Below the pieces are notes generated by a model. The model was given only the letters and a program-made list of their open reading frames with translations, did not search any database and was not told the origin of the DNA. Source: Bacteroides sp. (GTDB lineage: Bacteria; Bacteroidota; Bacteroidia; Bacteroidales; Muribaculaceae). Taken from it: a stretch of 64,000 nucleotides of DNA. The stretch's first letter is position 1. The number at the start of each line of letters is the position of its first letter. Location: positions 1-64,000 of the forward strand of contig JAAVDH010000035.1 of NCBI GenBank assembly GCA_014801865.1, given 5' to 3'. The position numbers and the translations under genes were made by a program. This document shows positions 2,630 through 58,977 of this stretch, piece after piece.

Positions 2630-2669
2630 CACAACAAAAGCCCGCTTGCGGCGAGCTTTGATGTTGTGG
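2630..2669 (-). terminator. ssrA terminator hairpin
   Basis: Just past the ssrA 3' end, the minus strand reads AAAGCTCGCC-gcaa-GCGGGCTTTTG, a GC-rich stem ending in a T run. Flanking CCACAACA and TGTTGTGG can extend the stem. It is placed as expected for a Rho-independent terminator of ssrA. Confidence 0.6.
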
Positions 2670-3066
2670 AGCTGGAGGGATTCGAACCCTCGTCCAAACG
2701 TGGAACTAATAAGCTTTCTACATGCTTAGCTTCAACTTGGTTGTAGGGCCACGGCAGGCATGAAGCGACCAACCTTGGCCTTAGCCTCTAAAAATTTCGG
2801 ACGCCTCGCGAGGCACTTGGTGTCCTATTTCCGATCTATCTGCACCGCCTGATCGAGGAGTCTCGGAACGGGTAAACCCTCGGGCGATGTCTCGTCTGCG
2901 TCCCTGGGACGCGGATTAGGCTTAATTTACTGTACTTCGATTAAGCAGCGAGAGCGTAGTTGTTTTCGCCATTTAAAATTTTGATGTCCCATATTATAGA
3001 GCGTAGCCATCATTGCTCTGCATGCTTACTTACCACCTCTACACGCTGTCAAAACCGGTCAGCCCC
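2667..3066 (-). ncRNA. ssrA: tmRNA
   Basis: The minus strand begins GGGGCTGACCGGTTTTGACA, the usual tmRNA 5' end. Its first seven bases pair with CAGCTCC at the 3' end to form the acceptor stem. The tag reading frame (2941-2970) encodes GENNYALAA followed by TAA, the Bacteroidetes-type proteolysis tag. The T-arm is GGGTTCGAATCCC. The length of 400 bases is normal for the order. CCA is not encoded. tmRNA rescues ribosomes stalled on broken messages and tags the nascent chain for degradation. Confidence 0.95.
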
Positions 3067-5706: not shown

Positions 5707-5714
5707 TACTTTTG
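5707..5714 (+). promoter_or_regulatory. -7 element for the beta-helix/BspA pair
   Basis: TACTTTTG matches the -7 consensus. No TTTG is found at the right distance upstream. It predicts transcription from about 5718-5721, 35 bases before the ATG at 5755. Confidence 0.4.
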
Positions 5715-5754: not shown

Positions 5755-8352
5755 ATGGCTACTCCATCATTTGCTACTGATATTGTCATTACTGATGCCT
5801 ATGTTTATCCATCCTCTTTCCCAGTTGGCTCACGCATCTTTGTTAAAGAGAATGTTAAAACCACCCTTCCTTCCGGTTTAGTTTTCAACCAAAACTGTAC
5901 GTTTATCTTAGGGAGCAATAGTGATGTAACCATTGAGACTGCATCATCCGTAACATTCCGTGATAATTGCGGCTTCATCATGCAACCTGGCAGCCAATTT
6001 ACCACAGGTGATGGTTCAACTCTCTCATTCGGAGCCGGATGCAAAGTTGATTTAAGTCAAGGCCTTGTATATTTAGGTTCCTACTATATCCCAGAGAACA
6101 GAGCCATTTTAAAACTTGGAAAAGATACATTGCTGAAAGCGGGATACCAAATACCTATCACCGGTACCGGTATAATTCAGGCACCCGAATTCAATCCCAA
6201 AGCCACCGTACAAGAGTACGCTATTTTTGAAGCGCCAGCCATACAAATCTTTGACGAAGAGATACAGATTACAGGAAACTGGCACATGGACCGTGCATAC
6301 CCTCAGTGGTTTGCACCGGAGAACTGTACAAACTGGGCAACTCCTATTCATAAAGCAATAGCTATGAAACGTACCGGGGAAGTCTTTCTTCAGAGAGGTC
6401 TTTATAAAATAAAAAGATCCATTCATATACCATATGGTATTCAGCTTGTAGGTGAAACCGGAAGAAGAGGATTCGACTATACAAATTGGCAATATAAGGA
6501 CACTCATGGTACCATCATAGCAGCATCACTTATGAGTGACCTTCCTGATCAGTATTCATGGAGGTATTTTGATTTTGGGTCTATGATATTGATAAACTTT
6601 AATCAGGATAAAATTCCTAGTTTTTCAAATAATAAACAGCCCTCAAACATGAAAAATGAAGGCAACCTGTGGGATAGAGCATTTCCTGTGGCAACGTGTA
6701 CGGCTTTACGACACATAGCTTTAGCGAATGGTTCTAAACTGGTAACCGATGAGGGACTTGATAAGAACAATGAAGTAGTACCGGAACTTACAGCTGTTTT
6801 CGTTGCAGGAGGTTGCGTGTTTGAAGACCTGACTTTCGGCGCTTTTAAGCAAGCTATTGTTAAGACTGCTGACTATGCTGACAATATGCAAATTTTTGAT
6901 TGTGCATTCTCAAAAAGCTACGAATTCAATAATTATCCGGCCTTATCAAATGGCTATAAAGAATCCGAAGAAGAAAATGATAGCCAAAATGCCCTCTATA
7001 TGGTGCAACTCAATGGAAGCGGCGATAATCTTATTTTCAGAGGGAATGCTTTTCACTCCGGAAATGAGTATAACTATGCGCTATCTATCGTTAGCTGTAA
7101 GGGTGGCACCATTTCAGACAATATAATTAACGAGCGAGTTCGTATTTCGAATTGCCGTGCTATAACATTTGCAAACAATCACATGGAGTCTGATGATAAT
7201 GACCTCTATGGTCCACAACTCCGTATTATAAATTCTCAAATTACAGTTTCATCTAATTTTTTCTATAAAAGTGATAAAAATAACATAGTGGTAAGAGGAT
7301 CTACTTCCGGTGAGGTATGTTCAGCAATATTAGAGAACAATACATTCTCTTGCCGCTTTTTTGAAATCCCCAAAAAGTATGTAACCGGAGTTGGAGAAAA
7401 TGATCAACATCTTGAAACTGACGAGGAATACACTCTTAGATACAATGGTATAGTTGAGAACTGGAAAAGAAGATCCAATTCTGCCGAGATTTGTATTAAT
7501 CCTGGGGCAGACGTACAACTAATAAAACAATTTCGTCAAATAAATGGGGTTAACTATATGACTTGGCCCACTCAAGTAGGCGTCTCATTTCGGATGATAG
7601 GAGCTACGGGTGGAGACTTAGATCCTGAATCAGTTGTCGATATACCATGGTTTACAATTCTGAAAAGGCTAACCACACTTTCGCCCTATCTTTCCTATCA
7701 AGGTTGCATTAAAACTGGTTTTAGGGTCGAGAATCTACTTAATACTCAGGCCATAACCAATATACAGATGAAATCATCTGATTCTAGTGGAAACGTACGA
7801 TGGTATGCTGAATCGGGTTACTATGATTACTATGCCCAAATTGTATTTGACCTTGAGAGAAAAATCATCGGGACAATTGATGGAAATAAAGTCAAACACT
7901 TGATGGCATCGCCTGAAGAACGGAAATCCTACTGTGAGTGTGTCATCGATGGAAAGATATCCAACTCAAGAGGGACTATTCTCAAACTTTACAATGAAAC
8001 TCTATCCATTGGATGGGATGCTACTCTACACGTATATCGTTCATATCGAAAATCAGCAGAAGGTAGTATTGAACGTTGGGATAAAGTTGCAATCCCCATA
8101 TGTGGCGCTGAGATTCTATATGATAATGGAATAACTTTGTCCGGATACCTTTGGGAAAAGCATACTGACAATAACATTCCCACAATTACCGATATTACGG
8201 ATGGGATTACTGCGGTAACCTTCCGTAATTCCAATGTGGAATGCCTGTCAACAGCTAATCCATCAACATTGCTTAAAGGAACGTGGCAAAATGGTGACAT
8301 TATCTATAATGTTGGCACTGATGAATCATGGAATATTTATATCAAGAAATAA
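5755..8352 (+). CDS. Right-handed beta-helix protein (pectate lyase-like fold), paralogue of 56315-58738
   Basis: The 865-residue protein has an N-terminal strand-rich region, then a segment AYPQWFAPENCTNWATPIHK followed by GEVFLQRGLYKIKRSIHIPY. This resembles the start of the tailspike/pectate lyase superfamily helix (WF..., A-I..A, G.V.L..G.Y.I). The middle (residues ~380-560) has short repeated strands rich in Asn and Gly, such as GGTISDNIINERV and ITFANNHMES, typical of parallel beta-helix rungs. The C-terminal third pairs with the second copy. The role may be polysaccharide binding or cleavage; no catalytic residues could be assigned. Taken from ATG 5755, it has no full signal peptide, but residues MATPSFATD look like the end of one (see findings). 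It lies 18 bases before a BspA-like gene and is probably co-transcribed with it. Confidence 0.7.
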   Translation: MATPSFATDIVITDAYVYPSSFPVGSRIFVKENVKTTLPSGLVFNQNCTFILGSNSDVTIETASSVTFRDNCGFIMQPGSQFTTGDGSTLSFGAGCKVDLSQGLVYLGSYYIPENRAILKLGKDTLLKAGYQIPITGTGIIQAPEFNPKATVQEYAIFEAPAIQIFDEEIQITGNWHMDRAYPQWFAPENCTNWATPIHKAIAMKRTGEVFLQRGLYKIKRSIHIPYGIQLVGETGRRGFDYTNWQYKDTHGTIIAASLMSDLPDQYSWRYFDFGSMILINFNQDKIPSFSNNKQPSNMKNEGNLWDRAFPVATCTALRHIALANGSKLVTDEGLDKNNEVVPELTAVFVAGGCVFEDLTFGAFKQAIVKTADYADNMQIFDCAFSKSYEFNNYPALSNGYKESEEENDSQNALYMVQLNGSGDNLIFRGNAFHSGNEYNYALSIVSCKGGTISDNIINERVRISNCRAITFANNHMESDDNDLYGPQLRIINSQITVSSNFFYKSDKNNIVVRGSTSGEVCSAILENNTFSCRFFEIPKKYVTGVGENDQHLETDEEYTLRYNGIVENWKRRSNSAEICINPGADVQLIKQFRQINGVNYMTWPTQVGVSFRMIGATGGDLDPESVVDIPWFTILKRLTTLSPYLSYQGCIKTGFRVENLLNTQAITNIQMKSSDSSGNVRWYAESGYYDYYAQIVFDLERKIIGTIDGNKVKHLMASPEERKSYCECVIDGKISNSRGTILKLYNETLSIGWDATLHVYRSYRKSAEGSIERWDKVAIPICGAEILYDNGITLSGYLWEKHTDNNIPTITDITDGITAVTFRNSNVECLSTANPSTLLKGTWQNGDIIYNVGTDESWNIYIKK

Positions 8353-8370
8353 TAAATCACATCTACACAA

Positions 8371-9372
8371 ATGAAACAAATTAAGATCAGGGTTAACTAC
8401 CTAAAGAACCTCTTTAACTTTATAGTCGCAGCTCTTTATGGAGCAGCGCTGTCTCAAGCGCAAGCGCCTGAGACAACCATAGCCGGTATAAAGTATATTC
8501 GTACAGGTGACGGAACTTGTAGGGCTTCGATGGTAAAGACTGATAACCCATTAAGTAATTATACTGTAAAATCTACCGTTACGATAGACGGAGAAGAATG
8601 TACAGTGACCTCCATAAGCGACATGGGCATTAATGCAGTCCTTGATAACGATGGAAGTGCATATGAACATTATTCCATCAAATACAAGATTTCCTTCCCT
8701 GAATTTGTCGATACCATCTGTTCTTACTGCTTCAAAGGTCCTGAAAAAATTTCGTATCATTTTACCAGATGGAAAGATTTTAGTTTCCCCAATGCAAGAG
8801 TCATAGAGTCATATGCTTTCGCTAATTGTGTAGGAGATATCATTATTCCAGAGGGTGTGGAAGAGATAGGATATAAGATTAACGGAGATTATCAATTCGG
8901 ACCTACAATAATAAGTCTCCCATCTACGCTTAAGCGAATGTCGGCACTTGCAGTTTCACACACTGATTTAACGGCAGCTCCAACTTTTTGGTCCACTACT
9001 CCTCCGGTAATAATACCTCTACCTGACGGAAATAGTTTTCCGCTAAATTTTGAAAACAATTTATACGCGTGTATTTATGTGCTTCCAGCCTCCTTGGATG
9101 TATATAAGAATGCCGTAGGATGGTGTAATGTCCCATATATTGAGCCTATAAGTGGATTGGATGCTATAGATAAAGTGGCGACTGGCGAAGATATCGCATT
9201 CGAGGTGAGTGACAGCGCTATTAGTGCGGTGAATTGCTTACAGCCCGTGGAGGTTTACACCACTGACGGACGATGTGTGGCTGTTGGAACTGACGGTACT
9301 GTATCAGGTCTTAATGCAGGGCTTTACATAGTGCGCTGCGGAGCGACAGTAAGCAAAGTCTACGTAAGATAA
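8371..9372 (+). CDS. BspA-like leucine-rich repeat protein with T9SS-type C-terminal signal
   Basis: The 333-residue protein has a signal peptide (NLFNFIVAALYGAALSQAQA) and a short BspA-type LRR region with units such as VIESYAFANCVGDIIIPEGV and TIISLPSTLKRMSALAVS. It ends with a C-terminal domain VEVYTTDGRCVAVG...GLNAGLYIVRCG...KVYVR. That ending matches the type A sorting domain used by type IX secretion (a GLYIV strand, then a short K-V-x-V end). The predicted location is the cell surface, attached after PorU processing. BspA-like proteins often bind host or bacterial partners; the ligand is unknown. It follows the beta-helix gene in one operon. A similar pair exists at 54.3-58.7 kb. Confidence 0.75.
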   Translation: MKQIKIRVNYLKNLFNFIVAALYGAALSQAQAPETTIAGIKYIRTGDGTCRASMVKTDNPLSNYTVKSTVTIDGEECTVTSISDMGINAVLDNDGSAYEHYSIKYKISFPEFVDTICSYCFKGPEKISYHFTRWKDFSFPNARVIESYAFANCVGDIIIPEGVEEIGYKINGDYQFGPTIISLPSTLKRMSALAVSHTDLTAAPTFWSTTPPVIIPLPDGNSFPLNFENNLYACIYVLPASLDVYKNAVGWCNVPYIEPISGLDAIDKVATGEDIAFEVSDSAISAVNCLQPVEVYTTDGRCVAVGTDGTVSGLNAGLYIVRCGATVSKVYVR

Positions 9373-9453: not shown

Positions 9454-9535
9454 ATGAGTCGCGGAGCGACGATATTGTCTGTAAGTCTTCGTTTTAAGAA
9501 TGACTGCACCACAATACCGTCGCTCCGCGACTCAT
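9454..9535. repeat. Inverted repeat with 25-bp arms
   Basis: The arms at 9454-9478 and 9511-9535 match at 24 of 25 positions in inverted orientation, around a 32-base centre. Each arm contains its own small palindrome GTCGC-GGA-GCGAC. It lies in the 454-base gap between convergent genes. It could be a bidirectional terminator or a REP-like element. Confidence 0.65.
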
Positions 9536-9745: not shown

Positions 9746-9780
9746 CGCATTATCTACGTGTAATCTATCAAATAACCATA

Positions 9781-9823
9781 TCATTGGATGTATCTGCGTA
9801 ACATATGCAGTTACATCCAATGA
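9781..9823. terminator. Hairpin at the end of the sialic acid operon
   Basis: TCATTGGATGTA (9781-9792) and TACATCCAATGA (9812-9823) form a perfect 12-bp stem with an inner CTGC/GCAG pair. It ends three bases beyond the stop codon of the creatininase-family gene. It is the likely 3' end of the nan transcript, though no strong T run follows. Confidence 0.55.
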
Positions 9824-9826
9824 TGG

Positions 9827-23752: not shown

Positions 23753-24805
23753 ATGAAAACTTGCACACTACTGCTTATATGTATTCTGTCGGCACTTAAT
23801 CTCTATGGATTAGAGCGACATCTGACACTTGAAGTCGAACCCGTCGATACATCTGACATTATGAATCTCCGTGTTTGGGATTTCTCCAAAGGTAAGATTC
23901 ATGGAAACTATAAGGGTGCAGAAATAATTCTACATGGTGACACGCTACTGAGTGAATCAATGGGACGTTTCAGACAATGGTACTTCATCAAGGACACATC
24001 TATATTTTATGCCGGAGAAGAGACTCCTGAACGCATTGTGACACCGTTATATCCAACACGTTGGTTCTCATTTCCTTTACAAAGCGGAGAACATAGTACA
24101 ACAACCTTACAAAACCACGGCAGAATATACTCTCGCTTTGACCTTGCCGAGGATGGCATGTATAGTATAGAAACAGGCACCAAAGGCATCGTGATATTAC
24201 CTCCCGGTGATACAATATATAATGTCATAATAACTAAAGAGTTCCGTAACGTCAAAGAAGGGATTGACAATCAGACTTCTTTCCCTTTGTCGGAATATGA
24301 CAGCCTCCCTGAAATCCATCATACGGTTTTTCGATGGTATTTGCCGAGTGATACTCTTCCCATAGCATTACAAATTGCCCGAGAGGTAAGGTCATTTGAA
24401 GGAACAGTTTTATCTAATGCCACAGCTGCCTATATACCTGATTTACTTGAAAATAATATGGATTTGTCCTACCTGTCACCCGGTATTGACGTAGAACATA
24501 ATATAAAGTCTATTCTTTCGACATTGACTGTAGAGTACCACGATGGTAACTTTGTAATTCTATTTCCCGGCATTCAGTCTTACAGTGATAAATCCATTAT
24601 ACAAAATAGATTTAATGTACAGACTCTGAATATCGACGTCATGGATATTCCCGGCAATCTCTATAAACATGCCGTCACCCTTCTCCCGGAAGAAGGGACG
24701 ATAAATATTCCCGTTTCCAGTCTACCGGCAGGAAAATATGTGGTAGGGATAAGAAGTGAAGCATACCCTGAATTTACCGAAAAGCGCTTTATAAATATCT
24801 TTTGA
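23753..24805 (+). CDS. Secreted partner protein upstream of the Rhs gene
   Basis: The 350-residue protein starts with a signal peptide (MKTCTLLLICILSALNLYG) and has no transmembrane segment afterwards. The body is beta-rich and I do not recognise it. The last ~60 residues (INIPVSSLPAGKYVVGI, then EFTEKRFINIF) look like a type IX secretion sorting domain, with the typical strand, SLPAGKY turn and short basic end. Its stop codon lies two bases before the Rhs start, so the two are almost certainly made together. It may help present or export the Rhs protein; that is inference. Confidence 0.55.
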   Translation: MKTCTLLLICILSALNLYGLERHLTLEVEPVDTSDIMNLRVWDFSKGKIHGNYKGAEIILHGDTLLSESMGRFRQWYFIKDTSIFYAGEETPERIVTPLYPTRWFSFPLQSGEHSTTTLQNHGRIYSRFDLAEDGMYSIETGTKGIVILPPGDTIYNVIITKEFRNVKEGIDNQTSFPLSEYDSLPEIHHTVFRWYLPSDTLPIALQIAREVRSFEGTVLSNATAAYIPDLLENNMDLSYLSPGIDVEHNIKSILSTLTVEYHDGNFVILFPGIQSYSDKSIIQNRFNVQTLNIDVMDIPGNLYKHAVTLLPEEGTINIPVSSLPAGKYVVGIRSEAYPEFTEKRFINIF

Positions 24806-24807
24806 CC

Positions 24808-27800
24808 ATGAACCGACTAATAGTTATATTCATTACCCTATTGGCGACTCTTGGAATACAAGGTTATGCACAATCGGAAAATACACCGGTAGCACCTCTC
24901 AACAGCAACTATGTTCCTGAGACACCGAGTATCTGGAAACACCATCAGGCTAATTTACCGACTCCTGCACTTCTTACAGGTGCTGCTACTTTCGAGGTAC
25001 CTCTGTACACTCTGAAATTCCATGATATTACGTTACCGTTTACACTGAGTTATCGTTCTAACGGCATACGACTCAATGATGATCCATATCCATGCGGCTA
25101 TGGATGGACTTTACTCCCATCTCTACGTATAACCCGCACTATTAAGGGACGTCCTGATGAGATTTATCCCAGATATAATTATGGTGGAGACATTGACAAC
25201 GAAACATTTTTCAATTGTATGATTGAAGACAAGTCAGGAAGTTCTCACAAGGATTACTGGGACTCACAACATGATATTTTTACCATTATTCTTCCGGACA
25301 AAACCATACCTATGCTATATGACGACGGTCATTTTTATGGGGTTGACTGTGATGAATACCTTGTAGAGTTCAAATATTTAGGAGATGATGTGCCTGATGG
25401 GATTGTCGTAAAAGATCCGCAAGGATATACATATTACTTTCAGGCTGAAGGAGGGGAATACTATATCAATGAAAAGAATCGCACCGAATGGCTTCTACAT
25501 TCAATCACAGCTCCATCCGGTGATGAACTTACGTTCGCATGGACGCAGTGGAACTATACAACGGGCCATAAGCATCTACGACAGAGAGCGCTCAATCCGG
25601 CTCAAGTACGTTGTACCAGCGAATGGAGAAATGGACAGGCTGCCACTCCTGATTTTTCAAATCCCATCGGTACTCTTTCTGCCCAAAACTACGGTGGATC
25701 AAATCTAGTAGAAGTCAGTGGTGCAGGTGTCACTCTGACATTTTCCTATAACACCGATATGTTAACCGGAATGAAAGTATCATTCTATAATCCGTTCGAT
25801 GACAGTCGCTCCGAAGACAACATTAATATCACATTTTCTTATAATAAAAATTCTAAATTTCTTCTTGATCAGGTAAACCACGATACAGACGGAGTATATC
25901 GATTTGACTACCATACTCCTAACAATTGTACTAATCGTTTTGATGCTGAAATCACCAATTCATTTGAAGTTTCTCCTTATCAGGATTGGTGGGGATACTA
26001 TAATTATAATCCCAACGAAGATTCAAATCCTACATTGAACACATCTAATCCTCAGCCGATAGTCAAGTTCAAAAATCTCGAAGGGCACACTTTTAAGAAA
26101 GGTTACTACGAAACTCCTGGTTCTCCAAGAGAACCCTACGAACCCTCTATGTTGGCGTATACACTTAAAAGCGCAACGATTCCTACCGGAGGAAAAATTG
26201 AATGGAAGTATGAAATGCATAGATTTCCCAAAACGACTACCTTAAACTATATTTCCGGATCCTTATATAAAGAACCGGAACTTAGTGAGGGTGGTGGCCT
26301 ACGCGTGAAGGAGATTCTTATGTACTCCCCAACAGACATACAACGCAGTACCAAAAGAACTTACAAATATGGTATAAACGGTGATGGAAACGCAGTATGT
26401 AAGATTGTGCCATCTCTATCAACATTCATAACACAGCAGACGTCTGTAAACTTCTATGAGGACAACTTTCCACTTATTGGTCTTCCAGAGACCTACGTAG
26501 AGAAAATGCCTGTTTATAACATCAGTGTAAATTCTGATTACTTGTCATATCTTGGTGGCACGATGCCGATTTGGTATCAGGAGGTAACAGAAATCTATGA
26601 TGAAGGTAAGACTGTCACTTCATACGACTACCAAATAACTGATAATGAGGTACAAAACGACACATATTACACTTACCTTAAAAAATCGAGTAGACTACTC
26701 TCTAAAGGTCCACAGATAACAAAACGCGTTACATACAAGAATGATGATTCAAATCAATATGTACCAGTTACGACTGAAATATATGAATATGATGTAACTT
26801 CCGGTAATACTCTTCCGGACTTGTCTATTACACGAGATTATTATCAGATTCAATGTCCCACGACGGCTCCTGATTTAAGTGCAACCAGCCCATTCGTATT
26901 TGATACCCATACCGTTCCTTATGAGGGATGTCCCGCAGAGGGAGAGAAAGGTAAATCATTCTACTTCGATAAATATTTCTTTTTATACAAATACGGTGAG
27001 ACCTATGTCATTCCTTGTCGCGAACGTCTTTCAAAAAAGACAGTGACTTTACACACCGACAATGGTGACTACACAACGTGGGAGAAATACGGCTACGTCA
27101 ATGGCACATCACTCATAAGCAAAATCGAACGCTCTATGAGTGACACTACAGCACAATACTCACAGGCAATTAGCTACACACCTGATGACGTTACTGTTGC
27201 CACCGCAATGAAGAAACTGAACATGACGGGTATACCTGTAAAGACTACCACAAATTACGGTAATGCGGTAACCTCTGAATCCTATACCATGCACAATCCT
27301 TTCGAGGGCATAATTGTACCACGGGCATTCACTCTTACACGTGGAGGAACATCATATACCCCGGCTACATATCGCCATGACCTAAACGGCAACCTCATCG
27401 AGACTCTGCGAGAAGACCAAACTGTCACTTCGTGCATATGGGGATATGCAGGTCTTTATCCTGTCCATCAGGTTGAGGGGTTGAATATAGCATCACTTAC
27501 TTCCCAACTTCGTACTTCCGGCGTTGACACTGACCCCATCCTATTCGGCGAAGGTGAGTTGCTCAATCTTGACGGGATTAAGAATCAGGCACTCATCACA
27601 TCAATGAAGTGGTTGCCAGGAGAAGGAGTTACATCCATCCGGTATCCGACAGGAATAACCCATGGCTTTGGATACGATACCCAGGGGCGACTTAACCGGA
27701 CATGGATCAACAGTGATACATTGACGACCACGGCCTATAATATCGGTTTGAAAAATGGTTCATGGTATGACCAACGCAAGTGGCTTGACCGCAGCGGAAC

Positions 27801-30800
27801 AAACAATATCATCACCATAGAGAATCTTGATGCCCTCGGACGCTCCTCCACTACTGTTACGCAAGCCAATGGTGAGTATATAGCCACTCTAAAGACCTAC
27901 GACCGTATGGGGCGTCAGGTTCAGGATTGGAATGCCACACCGGTCGGCTCATTGCATCCTTCGGAAAACGAGGTGTATGCTTCCGCTACTGAGTTTTATG
28001 GAGATAACGCACCGTATATGACCACTCTCTACGAGAAGTCATCAAGGGAACAGGCTGTCGGTTATATCAAACAGGGGGCCGAGTGGGCTACACATCCTTC
28101 AACTGTAAGACAGTTGACAAATACAGGTTCCGAGGTCAGAAACACAGATTATCGTGCACCGCGATATACAGTTACATCTGATGGTATAACCTATGCAAAA
28201 CCCTATCCGACAGGCACACTTTTGGTAAAGGAAGAAATTGACGAAGATGGAGTTACCCTCCAGACCTATACCGACATGCGTGGTCTCAAAGTTCTTGAGC
28301 GACGTGGCAAAAAAGGCAGTTGGCTTGATACACGTTATATCTATAACGATTACGGTGAACTATGCTACATTCTTCCTCCGGCAGTGAGCGCCAACAAAAG
28401 TCTCAAGCGCACTGACTCCGAGATGAGAGATTACGCATACTGGTACGACTACGATACCCGTGGCAATGTCACACTTCGCAAATTACCCGGTCGTGATGCA
28501 ATTAAGTACACTTACGACCCGGCAGGTCGCCTTGTATTCATGCAGGATGGTAATATGAGCGCCAAAGGAGAGCGAATCGTTTATCTCTACGACCGTTATG
28601 GCCGTAAGGTTGTTACCGCGCGTGTCGGCTGGACCGAAAGTCAGATAAAAACTTTCCTTGAGAAAGTTCGTACAGCCACATGGTCTGGGAACCGCTATAT
28701 CGGTCAGGGTTATACTATTCCGGATTTTAAGGAAACACTCGAGATGGTCTCATACAACGACGCCGGACAGGTAAATTCCCGTACAAACGGTGTTGTTACA
28801 ACCCAGTATACATATGACTCCCGCGGTCGGGTAAGTAAGACTTACGAAATCAATAATACCGTCGGTTTTAGCATCACTCGTGAGTATGCCTACTCTTATA
28901 CTGACAAGCCACTTACATGCCTGACGACATACGATGCATCTTCATTTAGTATACGTCCGACCCTTACGGAATTCATATATGACAGCGCTGACCGTTTGAT
29001 TACCACACGAGTGCGCCAGGGGACATCATTCAAGCCATTCCCTGCGGCACCATCATCGCCCGGAGATACCGTAAGTATTATTAACAATACATACGATGCT
29101 ATCGGACGTCTTACTGATATCCGGCTCGGCTCCTCTATAAACCGTAAACAATCTTACGATGTTCATGGTTGGCAAACTTCATTGCTGACCAAATGCGGTT
29201 CAACAGACATTGCTGCATTTGATGAATCACTAACTATTCCATTCCGAAGCGAGATATCGGAGATTGACACTACGGAGAAGAAAATCGAAGATACGGCTGA
29301 TAATAACGGCGTCGTTATAGGTCCTGTTGATTTCCTGTCACCCTTTAGCATCAATGAAACACTTGAATATGCTTCAGGCTCAGAGCCTCGTTACAACGGT
29401 AATATATCGTCGCGCACTCTCTCCGAGGGTTCATATAACTACACGTACGACATTCATAACCGACTGCAGCGTGCCACTTTCAAGGCATCTGGAAACAACA
29501 CTGCGAACTATTCTACCTCATACTCCTACGACTCAAATTCTAACCTCACTTCGCTGACTCGCAGCGGTGTTACCGACATAACCGGTACAGTCCGCACCTA
29601 CGGGTCTCACGAAGAACTATATTACATGCGTTCAGGCAACCAACTGACAGCCATAGGAGCAAGTGTTGCAGGCGCAGCCTATGAAGGTCGTACAGGTATA
29701 GGTGAAGATGGCACATGGGATATATCATATGATGCAAACGGCAATGTCAGTGTAGATGGCACACGCGACATCGCCTCAATAACTTATAATCATCTTGACC
29801 AACCGGAAACCATTTCTTTCGGTAACGGCACAAAACTGATAAACTCCTATGACGGAGCAGGACGTAAATTCCGCACTATTCTAACCGACGCAACAGGACG
29901 CACGGTACTGACACGCGATTATGTCGGCGATGCTATAGTTGATAACGGACGTGTAGTGATGACCCGTTTTTCCGGAGGTTATTTTGACAGCTCCGGTAAG
30001 GTCAACTATTACATAACAGACTATCAGAACAATATCATACGTACTGTAAGGCCCAACGGCATAATAGTACAGGATGCGGACTATTACCCCGACGGAGAAC
30101 TGTGGGAAGAACCCTCGGCGGAAAATCCATATCTATTCGGCGGAAAAGAGCGTGTAACACTTGGGGGACTTCGCATGGATGATTTCGGTGCACGCATCTA
30201 CCACTCGGCCATCGCCACATGGATGCAACCAGACCCCATGTGTGAACACACACCCCACATCTCACCCTATACCTACTGCAACGGTAACCCTATAATGCTT
30301 ATCGACCCAACAGGACGTCTCGTTGAAGCCGCCAACGACAGCGTAAACATGACTACTACAAAAAAAGGCGTTGAATACCATCACCTAAACACAATTACTA
30401 CTAAAAGGATTCCAATTATATCTGATATTCACGATTTTATTTTCCCTGATCATAATGATAATCATGCTGAGGACATAAAAGATGCCGGAACAGTTGCAGG
30501 AGCTGCTTCAGGACAGGCATCAATGAGAGAAAGTATGATGAATCGGACTTCACAAAAATCGACAGGCGCAACTATATCGAATAGTAATAGCGAAGGAGAG
30601 ATAGTAAATTCATATGGAAGAGGGAAAATTAAGGCTATTAATTATATAGGAAAAGTTGCCAATGGTGTAGCGCTAGTGTCTTCTCTTGACAGATTGTATC
30701 ATGATATTACAGACAGAGATCAGATTATAGTTCCAATAATCAGAACAAGCACTGATATTGTTATGATGCTAATTCCAGTAGCAGGGCCGTATGGAATTGC

Positions 30801-30891
30801 AATAAGTGTTGGATATCAGATTTTCGATATTAAATATGGAGATAAGGTATGGCATAGTTTAGAGAAGCCTACCAACACTCCAAACTATTGA
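24808..30891 (+). CDS. Rhs-repeat polymorphic toxin with a membrane-type C-terminal tip
   Basis: The predicted start is ATG 24808 (2027 residues). A Sec signal peptide (MNRLIVIFITLLATLGIQGY) is followed by the DUF6443-like N-terminal region common in Bacteroidetes Rhs proteins (FHDITLPFTLSYRSNGIRL). Many YD repeats follow, for example TYDPAGRLVFMQDG, YDRYGRKVV, YTYDSRGRVSKTY and YDANGNV. The conserved core ends around residue 1837 with DDFGARIYHSAIATW, QPDP and GNPIMLIDPTGR. After PTGR the sequence changes to a ~190-residue tip that is AT-rich and has a hydrophobic segment (IVMMLIPVAGPYGIAISVGY). This is the toxin position. Two small membrane proteins follow. There is no VgrG, PAAR or T6SS gene, so export is probably Sec plus an outer membrane route. 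The function is inferred as contact-dependent killing of competitors. Confidence 0.85.
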   Translation: MNRLIVIFITLLATLGIQGYAQSENTPVAPLNSNYVPETPSIWKHHQANLPTPALLTGAATFEVPLYTLKFHDITLPFTLSYRSNGIRLNDDPYPCGYGWTLLPSLRITRTIKGRPDEIYPRYNYGGDIDNETFFNCMIEDKSGSSHKDYWDSQHDIFTIILPDKTIPMLYDDGHFYGVDCDEYLVEFKYLGDDVPDGIVVKDPQGYTYYFQAEGGEYYINEKNRTEWLLHSITAPSGDELTFAWTQWNYTTGHKHLRQRALNPAQVRCTSEWRNGQAATPDFSNPIGTLSAQNYGGSNLVEVSGAGVTLTFSYNTDMLTGMKVSFYNPFDDSRSEDNINITFSYNKNSKFLLDQVNHDTDGVYRFDYHTPNNCTNRFDAEITNSFEVSPYQDWWGYYNYNPNEDSNPTLNTSNPQPIVKFKNLEGHTFKKGYYETPGSPREPYEPSMLAYTLKSATIPTGGKIEWKYEMHRFPKTTTLNYISGSLYKEPELSEGGGLRVKEILMYSPTDIQRSTKRTYKYGINGDGNAVCKIVPSLSTFITQQTSVNFYEDNFPLIGLPETYVEKMPVYNISVNSDYLSYLGGTMPIWYQEVTEIYDEGKTVTSYDYQITDNEVQNDTYYTYLKKSSRLLSKGPQITKRVTYKNDDSNQYVPVTTEIYEYDVTSGNTLPDLSITRDYYQIQCPTTAPDLSATSPFVFDTHTVPYEGCPAEGEKGKSFYFDKYFFLYKYGETYVIPCRERLSKKTVTLHTDNGDYTTWEKYGYVNGTSLISKIERSMSDTTAQYSQAISYTPDDVTVATAMKKLNMTGIPVKTTTNYGNAVTSESYTMHNPFEGIIVPRAFTLTRGGTSYTPATYRHDLNGNLIETLREDQTVTSCIWGYAGLYPVHQVEGLNIASLTSQLRTSGVDTDPILFGEGELLNLDGIKNQALITSMKWLPGEGVTSIRYPTGITHGFGYDTQGRLNRTWINSDTLTTTAYNIGLKNGSWYDQRKWLDRSGTNNIITIENLDALGRSSTTVTQANGEYIATLKTYDRMGRQVQDWNATPVGSLHPSENEVYASATEFYGDNAPYMTTLYEKSSREQAVGYIKQGAEWATHPSTVRQLTNTGSEVRNTDYRAPRYTVTSDGITYAKPYPTGTLLVKEEIDEDGVTLQTYTDMRGLKVLERRGKKGSWLDTRYIYNDYGELCYILPPAVSANKSLKRTDSEMRDYAYWYDYDTRGNVTLRKLPGRDAIKYTYDPAGRLVFMQDGNMSAKGERIVYLYDRYGRKVVTARVGWTESQIKTFLEKVRTATWSGNRYIGQGYTIPDFKETLEMVSYNDAGQVNSRTNGVVTTQYTYDSRGRVSKTYEINNTVGFSITREYAYSYTDKPLTCLTTYDASSFSIRPTLTEFIYDSADRLITTRVRQGTSFKPFPAAPSSPGDTVSIINNTYDAIGRLTDIRLGSSINRKQSYDVHGWQTSLLTKCGSTDIAAFDESLTIPFRSEISEIDTTEKKIEDTADNNGVVIGPVDFLSPFSINETLEYASGSEPRYNGNISSRTLSEGSYNYTYDIHNRLQRATFKASGNNTANYSTSYSYDSNSNLTSLTRSGVTDITGTVRTYGSHEELYYMRSGNQLTAIGASVAGAAYEGRTGIGEDGTWDISYDANGNVSVDGTRDIASITYNHLDQPETISFGNGTKLINSYDGAGRKFRTILTDATGRTVLTRDYVGDAIVDNGRVVMTRFSGGYFDSSGKVNYYITDYQNNIIRTVRPNGIIVQDADYYPDGELWEEPSAENPYLFGGKERVTLGGLRMDDFGARIYHSAIATWMQPDPMCEHTPHISPYTYCNGNPIMLIDPTGRLVEAANDSVNMTTTKKGVEYHHLNTITTKRIPIISDIHDFIFPDHNDNHAEDIKDAGTVAGAASGQASMRESMMNRTSQKSTGATISNSNSEGEIVNSYGRGKIKAINYIGKVANGVALVSSLDRLYHDITDRDQIIVPIIRTSTDIVMMLIPVAGPYGIAISVGYQIFDIKYGDKVWHSLEKPTNTPNY

Positions 30892-30903
30892 TAACCTTAG
30901 AAC

Positions 30904-31314
30904 ATGTTTATATTAAAATTGCTAAAATACTATTTCTGCTGCATTTACTGCTATAGGTCTAAATACCGTCCTTTCGAAGATGCCTTAGATACTTTAATGT
31001 ATGGAGGATTTGTATTTTTCTTATCAACTGTACCATTTGCGGTTGGGTTAGCTGTAATATTGCCTGAACAGTTTGAGACCACAGTCGGTATCTTCTATGG
31101 ATGTTTTTTCTTATTTGTTTTAATTTATTGGTTAATCTCTATGGTATTCAAGAAAGGATGCCTTAATTTAATTTCAGATCCATCCTTTAACCGAAGAAAA
31201 GCTGCACTTATAGGTGTTGTTCTATATAATTTCCCATTCTTCTCAATTATTGGGAGCATTCTTATCGATGATTTTATTAACTGGTATTCGTATTCTTTTA
31301 ATCAATTACGATAA
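30904..31314 (+). CDS. Small membrane protein, putative immunity protein 1
   Basis: The 136-residue protein begins 12 bases after the Rhs stop codon. It has an N-terminal YYFCCIYCYRSKYR segment and three or four hydrophobic helices. A conserved block CLNLISDPSFNRRKAALIG is shared with the three other small proteins nearby. Position directly behind the toxin tip and a membrane location fit an immunity protein against a membrane-acting toxin. The coding region is AT-rich compared with frdCAB. No named family recognised. Confidence 0.65.
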   Translation: MFILKLLKYYFCCIYCYRSKYRPFEDALDTLMYGGFVFFLSTVPFAVGLAVILPEQFETTVGIFYGCFFLFVLIYWLISMVFKKGCLNLISDPSFNRRKAALIGVVLYNFPFFSIIGSILIDDFINWYSYSFNQLR

Positions 31315-31347
31315 CCCCTATATTTTCATAAGTAAGTTTCTTGTAAG

Positions 31348-31782
31348 ATGAAAGTGCTTGAATATATTTTTGGTAAAATGTGGTGCTACCAATCAACTAC
31401 TTGTTGGAAAAGCGAACCACTATATACCTGTTATAAAATGTATTGGACAATACTTCTATATTTCTCATATCCGATAATGATGACAATATATACTTGGGGA
31501 ATAAAGTATTCTCAAGGCATGATTTTACCCACATGGCTTGCGGGTGGTCTAACCCTATTAATTCCAATACCATTTTCACTTATAACATATTATAAGTTAG
31601 TCAAGAATGGACGATACAAAGAAGTAATATCTCATCCTGATAGCGCACCCAAGTGGTCAAAATTTGTCGGGTGGTGCTTTTATTGGGGAGGAGTAATTAA
31701 TGTGATTATCTGGATAGTACTTCCTGCATGGAGTTTCCAGTTCTTTGAACCATTTATACATATAATCTTCCAAAAAATATGA
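31348..31782 (+). CDS. Small membrane protein, putative immunity protein 2
   Basis: The 144-residue protein shares the N-terminal Y-C-Y-x-S pattern (KMWCYQSTTCW) and the block NGRYKEVISHPDSAPKWSK with its neighbours. Several hydrophobic helices make it a membrane protein. It ends 13 bases before the second copy of the frdB tail. Two different immunity-like genes behind one toxin suggest that one is cognate and the other was retained from an earlier toxin. Confidence 0.6.
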   Translation: MKVLEYIFGKMWCYQSTTCWKSEPLYTCYKMYWTILLYFSYPIMMTIYTWGIKYSQGMILPTWLAGGLTLLIPIPFSLITYYKLVKNGRYKEVISHPDSAPKWSKFVGWCFYWGGVINVIIWIVLPAWSFQFFEPFIHIIFQKI

Positions 31783-31795
31783 TGGTAAGCTGGGA

Positions 31796-31883
31796 CTGCG
31801 CCGCTGAGTGCCCCAAGAATGTGCCCCTGAGCAACATCGCCCTTCTCAAGCGCGAGTTCATCAAAGCCAAGTGCTCTGACTAA
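31796..31883 (+). pseudogene. Displaced fragment: last 28 codons and stop of frdB
   Basis: This fragment reads [14 protein letters not shown], then [14 protein letters not shown] and stop, in the frdB frame. It differs from the intact gene at Arg-to-Leu and Asn-to-Lys (ARLNR versus ALLKR). An ATG at 31783 in the same frame would make a 33-residue peptide, but there is no reason to think it is used. It is the coding part of the 202-bp repeat. Confidence 0.85.
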
Positions 31884-31948
31884 TCCCACTCACACATGTG
31901 CGATGGTCACGTGACAACCGCCACTAACCATCCGCACCAATAACCCTA

Positions 31949-31995
31949 CTGAGGGCTGTGTCGCCAATCCGCGCGACACAGCCCTCAGCCTTTTT
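31949..31995 (+). terminator. Second copy of the frd terminator
   Basis: Same 15-bp perfect stem and T run as 23600-23646. Here it would end the Rhs/immunity transcript. Confidence 0.85.
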
Positions 31996-31997
31996 AT

Positions 31998-32671: not shown

Positions 32672-32680
32672 GAATCAATC

Positions 32681-54192: not shown

Positions 54193-54206
54193 TCCCGCTC
54201 TTATAT

Positions 54207-54253
54207 AATAATCAGGCCGTATTATCCATTTTGGATAATACGGCCTGATTATT
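54207..54253. terminator. Perfect 21-bp terminator hairpin
   Basis: Arms 54207-54227 and 54233-54253 are exact inverted copies around a five-base loop. It lies between the helicase gene and the convergent BspA-like gene and, being symmetrical with A/T ends, can stop transcription from both sides. Confidence 0.88.
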
Positions 54254-54273
54254 ATCAGATAGGTTTCTTTAGA

Positions 54274-56169
54274 TCAATTGATGGCAATCTTAACTACATT
54301 ACTACCCTGACGCACAATGTACAGTCCGGTAGGAAGATTATCAATAGAGTTGCTCACCCTCATACCGGAGATACTGTAAACCTCCATTGGAGCAGCCTGA
54401 TCAATAATAGGCCGTGAATCGACTATCGGACTATCAATACCTGAAAAATCTTCCTTGACGATATTTGAGAACAGCATCCACGGCATCATAGAATCGTAGA
54501 GCTCGTACGATTCGGCAGGAACATGAAGTATCACATTTCTATATTGCTCTTGCGAAAAAGTAGACTCGGATGTTTCGGGACTGTGTACTGCCTTAGGAGG
54601 TCTTGCTGCCATCACATATAGTTCTTTTAACCCACTTCCAGTAAAGACATTGGACGCTATATTATTAATATTCGGAGGAAGGATAAGTGACTCAAGACTC
54701 TCACAATTATAGAACATCTTCTTCGGCAAAGTCATGACTCCGGATGTCAGAGTAACATCCTTAAGGGAGCTACATCCCGAGAATGTCTCGGGCTCCAAAC
54801 TATTTATGTTTGGAGGTATAACAATTGATTGGATATACTCATTGCCGGCAAAATAATCCGGCAGAGATGTAAGAACAGGACCAATCTTTACCATTTCAAT
54901 AGGAGAAGTAGTGAAGAGTTCCAATGGTTGAGAAACATATCTTCCAAGGTACAAATATCTAACAGAATGAACTGGCGGATACCCTGACCAGTTACCCATT
55001 CTTTCAACAGTCAAGACATTGTCGCTATCTTCGAAAACAAGATGTTCTATATTTGAGTCCAGGAGGAAGAAAATGCTAACAGTCATTACATCACCAGGTA
55101 TGGAAAGTGACTTAAGACTATCGCAGTTCTTGAACACCTTGCTTTCTATAGTTCTCATTGAATGAGGTAATTGAATGGACGTAAGCGAAGTACAGTCACT
55201 GAAAGCCTCTGATTCAATTGTAGCGAATCCTTCAGGTATTTCAATAGATTCAATCTCTTTACAACTTATATACGCGTTATTGATTACCCCCATAGCCATA
55301 GGCCACTTTGGTTCGGAGACTTTGCTATCCTTAAATGCGGCTGCACCTATCTTTTTGAGATTGGGTCCAATCTCAACCTTAGCTACAGCTGTATAACTAA
55401 AAGCATAATCACCTATTTCTACCAAGGAGGCCGGAAAACCTCCCATAGAAAAATTATTACACCCGTAAAATGCCTCTTTTCCGATTGTTTCAAGCCCATC
55501 CGATGAGAATTTTACAGCCTTGAGTTTCTTACACATTTTGAAAATTCTGTCCGGAAGCTGCTTTACCATAGGGCCGATAGTCACATCATCCAGTTGTGAA
55601 TCATAAAACAACACTTGCTGGTCAGTTGACGATTGATTCTCAGCTTTCGTCGTCATGTTTCTTCCAAGATAAATCTTCTTAACATTGGAGTTAAAACGTG
55701 TAGGTACGTGAAGCGCTTCATCCCCGTCCTCAAATACAAATTCCTCTATATCAACATAGTCTTTATTATAAGTTCCGCCATTACTACAAAACGAACCACA
55801 TATAGATGTAACGGAAGGTGGAATTATCAACTTCTTTATTCCGACGCAACCTGAAATGGCATTTGCATTAAATGTCGTTAAAGTAGAAGGTAACTCTATG
55901 TTCTTAATTAACGTATCGCCTGCAAAGCACCCATTCTCAAGCTCGGTCACATTATAAGTGCGACTATAGTATTGGACTGTCGGGAGAATCTTTATATTAG
56001 CCCTCTCTTCAGCTGGCAATGTAACGCCTGCCACACTCGCATAACTGCTCGTTCCCATGTCATGAATAGTATATACTATCCCATCAATCTTTACTCCGTT
56101 CTGAGCACTTACAATCAAGGAGCCCCATAACGCTCCTAATAATACCAATAAGCTCTTCTTCATAATCAA
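54274..56169 (-). CDS. BspA-like leucine-rich repeat surface protein with T9SS-type C-terminal signal
   Basis: The 631-residue protein has a signal peptide (MIMKKSLLVLLGALWGSLIV then SAQNG). It has many BspA-type LRR_5 units, such as IGKEAFYGCNNFSMGGFPAS, IESEAFSDCTSLTSIQLPHS, IESKVFKNCDSLKSLSIPGD and LPKKMFYNCESLESLILPPN. A C-terminal sorting domain follows (MEVYSISGMRVSNSIDNLPT then GLYIVRQGSNVVKIAIN). It should be carried out by type IX secretion and fixed to the surface. The ending closely parallels that of the protein at 8371-9372. It is divergent from the beta-helix gene at 56315. Confidence 0.85.
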   Translation of the reverse strand: MIMKKSLLVLLGALWGSLIVSAQNGVKIDGIVYTIHDMGTSSYASVAGVTLPAEERANIKILPTVQYYSRTYNVTELENGCFAGDTLIKNIELPSTLTTFNANAISGCVGIKKLIIPPSVTSICGSFCSNGGTYNKDYVDIEEFVFEDGDEALHVPTRFNSNVKKIYLGRNMTTKAENQSSTDQQVLFYDSQLDDVTIGPMVKQLPDRIFKMCKKLKAVKFSSDGLETIGKEAFYGCNNFSMGGFPASLVEIGDYAFSYTAVAKVEIGPNLKKIGAAAFKDSKVSEPKWPMAMGVINNAYISCKEIESIEIPEGFATIESEAFSDCTSLTSIQLPHSMRTIESKVFKNCDSLKSLSIPGDVMTVSIFFLLDSNIEHLVFEDSDNVLTVERMGNWSGYPPVHSVRYLYLGRYVSQPLELFTTSPIEMVKIGPVLTSLPDYFAGNEYIQSIVIPPNINSLEPETFSGCSSLKDVTLTSGVMTLPKKMFYNCESLESLILPPNINNIASNVFTGSGLKELYVMAARPPKAVHSPETSESTFSQEQYRNVILHVPAESYELYDSMMPWMLFSNIVKEDFSGIDSPIVDSRPIIDQAAPMEVYSISGMRVSNSIDNLPTGLYIVRQGSNVVKIAIN

Positions 56170-56185
56170 TGCATATATTATTTCT

Positions 56186-56217
56186 CAAAGTTAGGATGAA
56201 ATTACAAGCAAATCAAA
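56186..56217 (-). promoter_or_regulatory. Promoter for the BspA-like gene
   Basis: On the minus strand TTTG (56214-56217), 20 bases, TAACTTTG (56186-56193): full consensus, with a leader of only about 12-15 bases. Confidence 0.7.
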
Positions 56218-56278
56218 CATAAATACATTATTATATTCTTTTAACAACATTTTAACAACTCAACCATGTGCACATATG

Positions 56279-56286
56279 TTATACTT
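56279..56286 (+). promoter_or_regulatory. -7 element for the second beta-helix gene
   Basis: TATACTTG resembles TAnnTTTG with one change. If used, transcription starts near 56290, after the ATG at 56276, so translation would begin at ATG 56315. Confidence 0.35.
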
Positions 56287-56314
56287 GCATATTTTTCTAC
56301 TACATAACTTTTTT

Positions 56315-58738
56315 ATGTCAAAAATTACCATTCCCGCAGGTAGCACACTCGAATTCTCAGAAGAATTAAGCGCTATTACATCAAGTATTGAAGCAAAAGA
56401 AGGCAGTACTATAATCCTTAGGAGTGCTGACCTGTATCTTACCAGCATCAAAGCCGGTCCTAAATGTAGAATTTTAGGAAATGGCTCTATTAGAGTTACC
56501 GATACTTTTAGTTTCGGGAAGGATTCAGTTATTGATTTAAGTAGTATATCCCTTACATTAGATCTCAATTCACTCGACAAAGAAGAAAAGGTGATGATCG
56601 GTCACCATTCAACACTTGTATTGCGTGATTACCCTATTACAGGAATAGGAGACTTTGTTTATTTTACTTTTGAGGAAACCACGACAACCACAAACAACAA
56701 CAATACTACAGTTACTACACTAAATCCTGACGGAGTCAGTACAACATTGGTAGCGCCATGTCGCCAGATATTCAAAAATGTAAAGGTTAAAGGTAAAGTC
56801 GCCACAGAAGAGGCCTATCCTGAATGGTTTGTTGATGAAGCAGATTATTCCACTTCTGACACACAGGGCAAGTGTGATGATTGGGCTCCGGCTATTAATA
56901 AGGTCTTTGACTTGTCTGCTAATGGTATCGTAAGATTGCAAAGCCGCCGCTATATGGTAAAGTCTACTATATGGGTTCCAACTAAGGGGCAACTTCTCGG
57001 TACCGGCAGTGGTATATGGCGAACCGTTGAAACCTCTCAAAGCTCGGGAGAAAAGAACGTAGATGTACAAAAAGCCGGAACTACAATTGATATAGGAAAA
57101 GATCCTTCCTTTACCGCTGGCTGTGTAATACTCGTTAACTACGACAAGTCTAAAGTTAATGCTATATCATCGTCAACGAGTGATGATACAAGTCTATACA
57201 ACATATTACGTAACCCCAGTGATAGTACTGACGTATATCAGTGTCTATTTGTCTACCCAGGCGGTAAGATTGCAAACCTCAACTTTATAAATACAGCGTA
57301 TTCTACATCTAAAGATCCAAACACATTTAAAAGCGGAGACTACACGTGTATCTTAGTAACCGGATGTATGGAATTTGATCAACTTTGTTTCCAGCTTTTC
57401 CCAAGAGGAATAGTTTGGTCAAGGGCGTACGCTGACCAGAAAAAGGTTACACGTTGTAAGTTTATGTATGACCGAGCCCAATCCGATAGTGATTATCAAC
57501 TGGATTTTAACAATGTAGGGGATGCGCTGGTATGTACTGGAAATTCATTTGATAGTGATGCGAGCAATGAATCTACTCATATTCGTATCTGCCAATGTTT
57601 CGGAGGGACCATTGCCGATAATATTATTAATGGCCATATATTGATAACTGGATGCAAGGCGATAGATTTCACAGGAAATCACCTGGAGAATGGTGCATTG
57701 ATGACAATTCGTAATTCTGCAGTAAATATCAATAACAACTTCTTTCAGAAAGGTATAACACCGAATATCTTAATACAATCTGATATTAACTATGATGCAT
57801 CTGTTGTAAATCTCACAAATAATTCTTTTGTTTATGTAGGTAACGAGGATTTCAAGTTGCTTAAAGATGGTAAATGGCAGTCAGGCTTACTTCCTGAAAT
57901 CAGTGACTATGATATAGAGTTGAGAGGAGTTGCTGTGCAAGGTACCGACGGGAAATATTATCCTCACGGTCCTATGGCGACATTAAACATTTCTAATTCG
58001 TTTCGATTCTTTGTCACAAGAGAACAGGCAGCACACGTTTATCCTACAGGAATAAAAATTTGCAAGAGTTATACAAACTTGGAACAGGATGCCGAATCAT
58101 TAGAAGAATTTAACCAAAGGAGTCAATTATACTCAACGCAAAGTGCTCTTAATGTTAGTAACGGAGTAGTCATCACTTCTCCTTGCGTAACTCTTAAGAA
58201 CTTAAATTCTGCATCAATGTCTGTATTTGGAACGACATCAAATACTCAATGGTTCTTAAACTCAAAGACGGCTACTACCGAAAATGGACGTGCTCGTATT
58301 TATACTTACTATGCTCAATTTATTTGGGATTTAGAAAAAAAATTAGTGACACCTGCGCCAACCATCTACACTGTTTTAGCTAACATCGGAAAAGGAGAAC
58401 CTAAAAATTCTACTGTAGACAAAGATGGTAATTTTATTCCGTCTAAGGGGGTGTTACTTCAAATTGGTCAGAATCCAGGATTTGCTGCTACGGCAATGGT
58501 TAGAATCATCAGACAACCCTCAGCTATAAGAGCCTCCAGAAATGATAATGCGCCTAATGACGGTGTGGACTATGTTGATATTCCACTAGTAAATTGCCGC
58601 ATACTACTTGACAATGGATACACTCTTAACGGATTTAAGTGGGCTGAAGCTAATTTACTGAGCGATATTGTAATAAATAAAGGGACGTCTCCTTCAAAAA
58701 TGACGTTTATGGGAGAAACATCTATTCTTGAAGAGTAG
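56315..58738 (+). CDS. Right-handed beta-helix protein, paralogue of 5755-8352
   Basis: The 807-residue protein is taken from ATG 56315 (MSKITIPAGSTLEFSEELSA). The frame is open to another ATG at 56276 that would add a hydrophobic 13-residue stretch. It has an N-terminal strand-rich part, a Thr/Asn run (TTTTTNNNNTTVTT), then EEAYPEWFVDEADYST and DDWAPAINKVFDLSANGIVR, which align with the same region of the first beta-helix protein. Rung-like strands follow (GGTIADNIINGHILITGCKA, AIDFTGNHLENGALMTIRNS). The C-terminus also matches the paralogue (NCRILLDNGYTLNGFKWAEA). The polysaccharide-related role is inferred; no catalytic residues assigned. It is paired divergently with a BspA-like gene. Confidence 0.7.
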   Translation: MSKITIPAGSTLEFSEELSAITSSIEAKEGSTIILRSADLYLTSIKAGPKCRILGNGSIRVTDTFSFGKDSVIDLSSISLTLDLNSLDKEEKVMIGHHSTLVLRDYPITGIGDFVYFTFEETTTTTNNNNTTVTTLNPDGVSTTLVAPCRQIFKNVKVKGKVATEEAYPEWFVDEADYSTSDTQGKCDDWAPAINKVFDLSANGIVRLQSRRYMVKSTIWVPTKGQLLGTGSGIWRTVETSQSSGEKNVDVQKAGTTIDIGKDPSFTAGCVILVNYDKSKVNAISSSTSDDTSLYNILRNPSDSTDVYQCLFVYPGGKIANLNFINTAYSTSKDPNTFKSGDYTCILVTGCMEFDQLCFQLFPRGIVWSRAYADQKKVTRCKFMYDRAQSDSDYQLDFNNVGDALVCTGNSFDSDASNESTHIRICQCFGGTIADNIINGHILITGCKAIDFTGNHLENGALMTIRNSAVNINNNFFQKGITPNILIQSDINYDASVVNLTNNSFVYVGNEDFKLLKDGKWQSGLLPEISDYDIELRGVAVQGTDGKYYPHGPMATLNISNSFRFFVTREQAAHVYPTGIKICKSYTNLEQDAESLEEFNQRSQLYSTQSALNVSNGVVITSPCVTLKNLNSASMSVFGTTSNTQWFLNSKTATTENGRARIYTYYAQFIWDLEKKLVTPAPTIYTVLANIGKGEPKNSTVDKDGNFIPSKGVLLQIGQNPGFAATAMVRIIRQPSAIRASRNDNAPNDGVDYVDIPLVNCRILLDNGYTLNGFKWAEANLLSDIVINKGTSPSKMTFMGETSILEE

Positions 58739-58810
58739 TATTCCTATTGGAATATCATTACAATTTTACCACCTCTACCCATATCTATCGTAACAAGGTA
58801 ACATTATTGG

Positions 58811-58846
58811 ACGGATTGACGTTGCGGAAAACGCGTGTCGATCCGT
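58811..58846 (+). terminator. Possible terminator after the second beta-helix gene
   Basis: ACGGATTGAC (58811-58820) and GTCGATCCGT (58837-58846) pair with one G-T mismatch, followed by a modest T stretch. It lies 73 bases after the stop codon. Confidence 0.35.
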
Positions 58847-58878
58847 CTTCGAGATTTTATCAGACGGATTAAATTTGT

Positions 58879-58953
58879 TACTTTTGCATTTGACTATTTA
58901 GAATTAAAGATGTCTAAGATAAGTAAGGCTAAAACTATCAGACTTACTTATCT
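58879..58953 (+). promoter_or_regulatory. -7 element and leader hairpin of the xse operon
   Basis: TACTTTTG (58879-58886) is a good -7 box. In the predicted leader, AGATAAGTAAG (58917-58927) and CTTACTTATCT (58943-58953) form a perfect 11-bp inverted repeat with a 15-base loop, 24 bases before the first ATG. It may be an operator or an RNA structure. Confidence 0.5.
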
Positions 58954-58977
58954 ATTCAACAACCTCAAGTAACGATT

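Follow-up and report, generated by a model that had tools for sequence, protein, structure and literature searches.

The window (the whole stretch of 64,000 nucleotides analysed here) contains two pairs of neighbouring genes, A and B, each consisting of a beta-helix gene whose product resembles phage tailspikes (the spike) and a gene for a BspA-like LRR protein. A first-pass annotation had reported both pairs, and both are real. The features of pair A are as follows.

5707..5714, + strand: Bacteroidetes-type -7 box TACTTTTG, candidate promoter of pair A (pattern match)
5755..8352, + strand: tailspike-like beta-helix protein A, 865 aa, without signal peptide (ORF, profile and structure evidence)
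6289..6312, + strand: codons of the family motif DRAYPQWF in protein A (conserved in family alignments; served as scan pattern)
7177..7188, + strand: codons of the NHxE motif (NHME) in protein A (N475, H476, and E478 invariant in the alignment)
8119..8130, + strand: YDNG codons of the C-terminal motif YDNG..G(Y/F).W in protein A (motif common to a phage spike)
8371..9372, + strand: BspA-like LRR protein A, 333 aa, with a signal peptide, one LRR_5 module, and a T9SS-like C-terminal tail

Gene pair A

Both genes of pair A (5755-9372) are read from the + strand, beta-helix A first, with a gap of 18 bp before LRR A. The short spacing, together with the lack of any terminator-like site in a search between the two genes, suggests that they are co-transcribed. 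The putative promoter was recognized by the Bacteroidetes -7 consensus, TAnnTTTG. In protein A, the nearest in-frame stop 5' of the start is just 11 codons away, and in most family members the stops 5' of the gene are too close for a signal peptide to fit in.

LRR A matched Pfam LRR_5 (PF13306) with an E-value of 5.5e-6 at 26.7 bits, slightly below the Pfam cut-off of 27.7. Its signal peptide is present by inspection. The match of its tail to the T9SS model was weak (E 0.038, 14 bits against a cut-off of 23); the tail is near-identical to those of two paralogues on contig C20 of the same genome, which are 60% identical to LRR A and have one LRR module more.

Downstream of pair A, hairpins were found at 9454-9535 (25-nt arms, 96% complementary, 32 nt between) and at 9780-9824 (21-nt arms, 90% complementary, 3 nt between); they may represent a small repeat element and a terminator. 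A tmRNA gene (2666-3066, tag GENNYALAA) lies about 2.7 kb from the pair; such genes are frequent integration sites, and no integrase was seen. In the empty-site comparison for pair A, patatin was not near the creatininase gene in nine relatives, several of these sequences being short.

Gene pair B

The second pair is divergent, as the first-pass annotation had stated, and its beta-helix protein is homologous to protein A over the full length (24% identity, E 3e-38).

54193..58977, no strand: segment containing pair B, missing at the syntenic site of relatives
54274..56169, - strand: BspA-like LRR protein B, 631 aa, with a signal peptide, LRR_5 repeats, and a T9SS-like tail
56186..56193, - strand: -7 box TAACTTTG 5' of LRR B, within the divergent intergenic region (pattern match)
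56276..58738, + strand: tailspike-like beta-helix protein B, 820 aa, without signal peptide

For beta-helix B, a start at 56315 (807 aa) is likelier than the one at 56276. LRR B matched LRR_5 with an E-value of 6.6e-66. Pair B is flanked by genes for a DEAD-box helicase (52414-54192) and a DUF3256 protein (58978-59601), which directly adjoin in 11 out of 11 congeners, i.e. without the pair. The genes inside the segment have a GC content of 38-40%, compared to 49-52% for the flanks. Pair B is thus a clean insertion, i.e. additional DNA at a site where relatives have none. A search for terminal repeats or a common boundary sequence around the pairs yielded nothing except local hairpins.

In another AT-rich part of the window (24802-33064), an Rhs-like gene (43.6% GC) codes for a signal-peptide-bearing protein of 2029 aa. 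Four small hydrophobic proteins, potentially immunity proteins, are encoded after it; for the two that were measured, the GC content is 31-34%.

Fold and phage relatives of the beta-helix protein

The first-pass annotation mentioned neither the phage-tailspike relationship, nor the insertion of pair B as a cassette, nor the missing signal peptides of the paired spikes. Pfam Pect-lyase_RHGA_epim was detected in 18 of 21 family members at an E-value of 0.01 or better (best 6.5e-8). The single-chain AlphaFold model of protein A (pLDDT 74.6, pTM 0.76) shows a long beta-helix with a beta domain C-terminal to it. Among solved structures, the top Foldseek matches of this model were phage tailspikes (6w4q_A, E 4.1e-5; 8iqe_A, E 1.6e-4), with WceF further down; the TM-scores were low (about 0.2, normalised by query) and support the fold class only, so that an active site is not transferable from the solved tailspikes. 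Among viral predictions, the best match reached an E-value of 2.4e-18. The conserved NHxE and Y/D positions are candidate glycan-binding or depolymerase residues only.

On the sequence level, the family profile matched the spike of a viral contig (L108, E 1e-31), including the motif YDNG..GY.W. With single members as queries, tblastn retrieved a tail-module gene of Acinetobacter phage Silvergun and the crAss001 tailspike gp23; the match to crAss-like spikes spans only about 120 aa. No match was obtained by tblastn for protein A against phages or for the homologue from G194 against plasmids, and a PHROGs search gave borderline matches only. A collection of 2.9 million viral contigs held only two weak relatives of the family. 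Other phage genes, including tail structural genes, were not recognized at the loci inspected, where the neighbours are housekeeping genes. The beta-helix protein is best described as a domesticated, chromosomal tailspike-like protein.

Distribution of the family and adjacency to LRR genes

Since the beta-helix proteins diverge fast, scans of the genome and of viral contigs with single proteins gave no matches. For pattern scans, the diversity of alignments A1 and A2 was too high, and the DRAYPQWF subset was used instead. Family profiles matched in 26 of 397 genomes of the window's family, and the named records among the matches were mostly Muribaculaceae. A sample of 393 genomes from the wider order added two genomes, both from another family, and the beta-helix family also occurs in Bacteroides sp. 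214. Its distribution is rare and patchy.

Adjacency was counted at 26 full-length loci with assessable flanks from Muribaculaceae and relatives. At 19 of these, the beta-helix gene directly adjoins a gene for an exported protein, mostly of the LRR_5 type; seven loci lack an LRR partner. The partner gene is located downstream on the same strand in 12 cases, upstream on the same strand in two, and in divergent orientation in five. The first-pass annotation had proposed that beta-helix and BspA-like proteins go together and had named in advance, as evidence against this, homologues usually standing without a BspA-like neighbour; the neighbourhood survey bears the proposal out.

LRR_5 was found at an E-value of 0.01 or better in 24 of 26 partner proteins scanned, a set that includes both C20 genes and the partners of distant or broken members. 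The partner in G023 is one of the two without a match. Some partner proteins also carry dockerin or Big_2 domains.

About 14 ORFs of the window's own genome are of the LRR_5 type, counting LRR A and the C20 copies. This is less than 1% of its genes, and the expected share of adjacent loci is therefore below 2%. With a background of 1.7%, taken from the LRR_5 frequency in this genome, the binomial P for 19 out of 26 is about 1e-28; at 5% it is 9e-20. Since some of the loci are related by descent, these values overstate the case, and the changes on the family tree described below are the better argument for coupling. Even so, a chance neighbourhood of two common gene types is rejected by the census and has a negligible probability, although LRR_5 proteins are numerous in Bacteroidales and two pairs in one window could be conceived as luck. 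None of the other LRR_5 genes examined in the own genome lies beside a spike gene; LRR genes without a spike are far commoner than spikes without an LRR gene. As for an independent replicate, a second spike family (A5) yielded only its two known members, both paired.

Several other neighbours were recorded. In Bacteroides sp. 214, two spike-like genes stand back to back in divergent orientation (L094, 7247-9226 and 10052-11935) without an LRR gene. A CotH gene (Pfam, E 2.3e-35) is found near a spike gene at L056 4734-6164; the genes at L022 873-2000 and L017 13438-14991, also near spike genes, appear CotH-like by eye and had no NCBIfam match. In G172 and G392 (L062 10729-13139 and L065 5518-7856), a small secreted protein of 130-152 aa is conserved upstream of the pair, as is a BT3442-family-like gene.

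Rearrangement and partner exchange

On the family tree, which has several long branches and 10 of 25 inner branches starred, the arrangement of spike and partner changed about 10 times. The pairing thus survives changes of orientation, as the first-pass annotation had surmised from two pairs, and at one locus it also survives an exchange of the partner. Specifically, in the species pair G603 and G748, the spike genes are 79% identical at a shared locus with collinear flanks, and their dN/dS (omega) of 0.08, with dS near saturation, shows purifying selection on this spike gene. The divergent LRR genes beside them have no nucleotide alignment and 29% protein identity, i.e. the LRR partner was exchanged beside a conserved spike. 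The reverse pattern was observed in G172 and G392, where the nucleotide similarity of the spike genes is lost (38% protein identity), whereas the LRR ends and the flanks are still about 72-81% alike. That either gene may be exchanged or diverge fast while the two remain paired indicates a functional link.

The two beta-helix genes of the window are not sisters on the tree, and a simple duplication of one pair into the other was rejected on this ground. A third locus was found on contig C20 of the own genome, where the C-terminal remnant of a beta-helix gene lies directly upstream of the two BspA-like genes mentioned above. Here, the spike gene has decayed and the LRR genes are still open. We also considered the spike as an antidote to a toxic LRR protein; this was rejected, as the LRR genes outlast the dead spike gene at C20.

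Secretion and glycan context

To assign signal peptides and tails, we used a hydrophobicity rule and motifs rather than a trained predictor. By this rule, a signal peptide is missing from 18 of the 19 paired spikes (the exception is in G101), whereas their LRR partners have one. TIGR04183 was detected at an E-value of 0.05 or better in 12 of 26 partner proteins, and several partners carry a dockerin tail in place of a T9SS tail. The own genome has a porQ gene (E 3.6e-103, L023 10083-11108), which lies on contig C20 beside the decayed pair. A porV gene (E 3.3e-140) was seen at L073 11575-12747 in G132, downstream of a distant spike-LRR pair.

Three unpaired homologues that do bear a signal peptide adjoin genes for glycosyltransferases or a chain-length determinant, in polysaccharide-synthesis clusters. 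This is also the setting of WceF of Pantoea stewartii, a Tat-exported, tailspike-like stewartan hydrolase (PMC7949094; PDB 6TGF), and by this analogy it suggests that the family may act in glycan binding or cleavage. Unlike such an exopolysaccharide hydrolase, beta-helix A and B have neither a signal peptide nor an EPS neighbour.

The first-pass annotation had offered a surface binding complex as the role of the pair. For the LRR partner, with its signal peptide and T9SS-like or dockerin tail, a surface location fits. The paired spikes, most of them signal-less, should remain cytoplasmic; a joint surface location would need a further export route, and a co-secreted complex is a conjecture. No export route for the signal-less spikes was found.

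Discussion

The identity of the parts and their coupling are well supported. We are highly confident that the loci represent a mobile two-gene module, in which a chromosomal, domesticated phage-tailspike-like beta-helix protein is coupled to an exported BspA-like LRR protein, and the two proteins probably work together. What they would do together is a tentative proposal, namely the recognition of surface glycans. Like tailspikes and WceF, the spike domain may bind a glycan or cleave it slowly. Sec and T9SS would bring the LRR protein to the surface, where it could dock the spike or bind the same target in its own right. The spike would have to exit without a signal peptide, most simply by release from lysed cells or vesicles. 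Together, spike and LRR protein might form a variable glycan-recognition layer on the cell. For the mobile module and this mechanism taken as a whole, our best explanation, we put the chances at slightly under even.

Alternatively, the two genes could be co-transferred and functionally separate cargo, both useful accessory genes on the same short segments and not one system. This would account for relatives lacking the whole of pair B at the site, for the AT-rich genes, and for the solitary LRR genes of the own genome, including those that outlived their spike at C20. Linkage alone, however, hardly explains three relative orientations with about 10 changes between them, or a partner exchanged at a conserved locus, and mobility genes were not recognized beside the pairs inspected. 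Separate cargo is therefore unlikely, but carries an appreciable share of the probability. A remnant of a prophage or tailocin, i.e. a leftover tailspike gene accompanied by an accessory cargo gene, or an orphan spike that particles acquire in trans, would fit the homology to spikes, the missing signal peptide, and the phage-type tails such as MIWWTGSSWKDAMGN in distant members. The scarcity of viral relatives and the lack of recognizable phage genes at the loci make it quite improbable, as do the purifying selection on a spike gene and the exported LRR partner kept in several orientations.

An anti-phage module is only slightly less improbable. Here, the LRR protein would shield the surface, while the cytoplasmic spike would act as a decoy or dominant-negative form, built into incoming phage tails or blocking them. 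Such a role agrees with the signal-less spike, its kinship to spikes of Bacteroides crAss-like phages, the patchy, cassette-like distribution, and a variable LRR partner beside a conserved spike. On the other hand, no PADLOC model of a known defence system matched, the loci lie among housekeeping genes and not defence genes, the signal-bearing homologues in polysaccharide clusters fit an action on the envelope, and the crAss-like match is short. A related and equally improbable idea is a swappable Muribaculaceae cassette, in which an orphan, phage-type intracellular spike and an exchangeable surface LRR protein would guard against phages or mark kin. The coupled module with a possible role in glycan recognition is thus the reading that we prefer.

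Comparison with known systems

The module consists of known parts in a pairing that is apparently undescribed; a literature search, which scarcely covered subscription papers, found no paper on such a pair. Among the surface proteins of gut Bacteroidales, BspA-like proteins are common, and to our knowledge few have a known partner. With a recurring spike-like partner that is gained and exchanged as a cassette, the question of what some of them bind becomes concrete and testable.

Phage tailspikes (CBA120 TSP2, K2-2 TSP, crAss001 gp23) share with the beta-helix protein a right-handed beta-helix, a pectate-lyase-like stretch, a C-terminal beta domain, and the absence of a signal peptide, and they are its best Foldseek matches. 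In contrast, the spike described here is chromosomal, stands without tail genes beside an exported LRR gene, and is hardly present in viral contigs. Compared by fold, WceF is likewise a bacterial protein with a tailspike-like fold, encoded in an exopolysaccharide cluster, and is comparable to the signal-bearing homologues; it differs in its Tat signal and P22-like head domain, and the accessible part of its report describes no LRR partner (PMC7949094). The mosaic adhesive trimer (MAT) fibres of Bdellovibrio, likened here by description and not by sequence, are phage-fibre-like proteins adopted for surface recognition; they have another architecture, and no LRR partner is reported in the part of the paper available (PMC10769870). 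Beside WceF and these fibres, the module adds a case of bacteria adopting tailspike-like proteins. Finally, BspA-like LRR_5 proteins such as BspA of Tannerella forsythia and HupY have in common with the LRR partners the LRR_5 repeats, a signal peptide, and often a T9SS-type tail, whereas the partners described here are coupled to a spike-like gene and several bear a dockerin instead of the T9SS tail.
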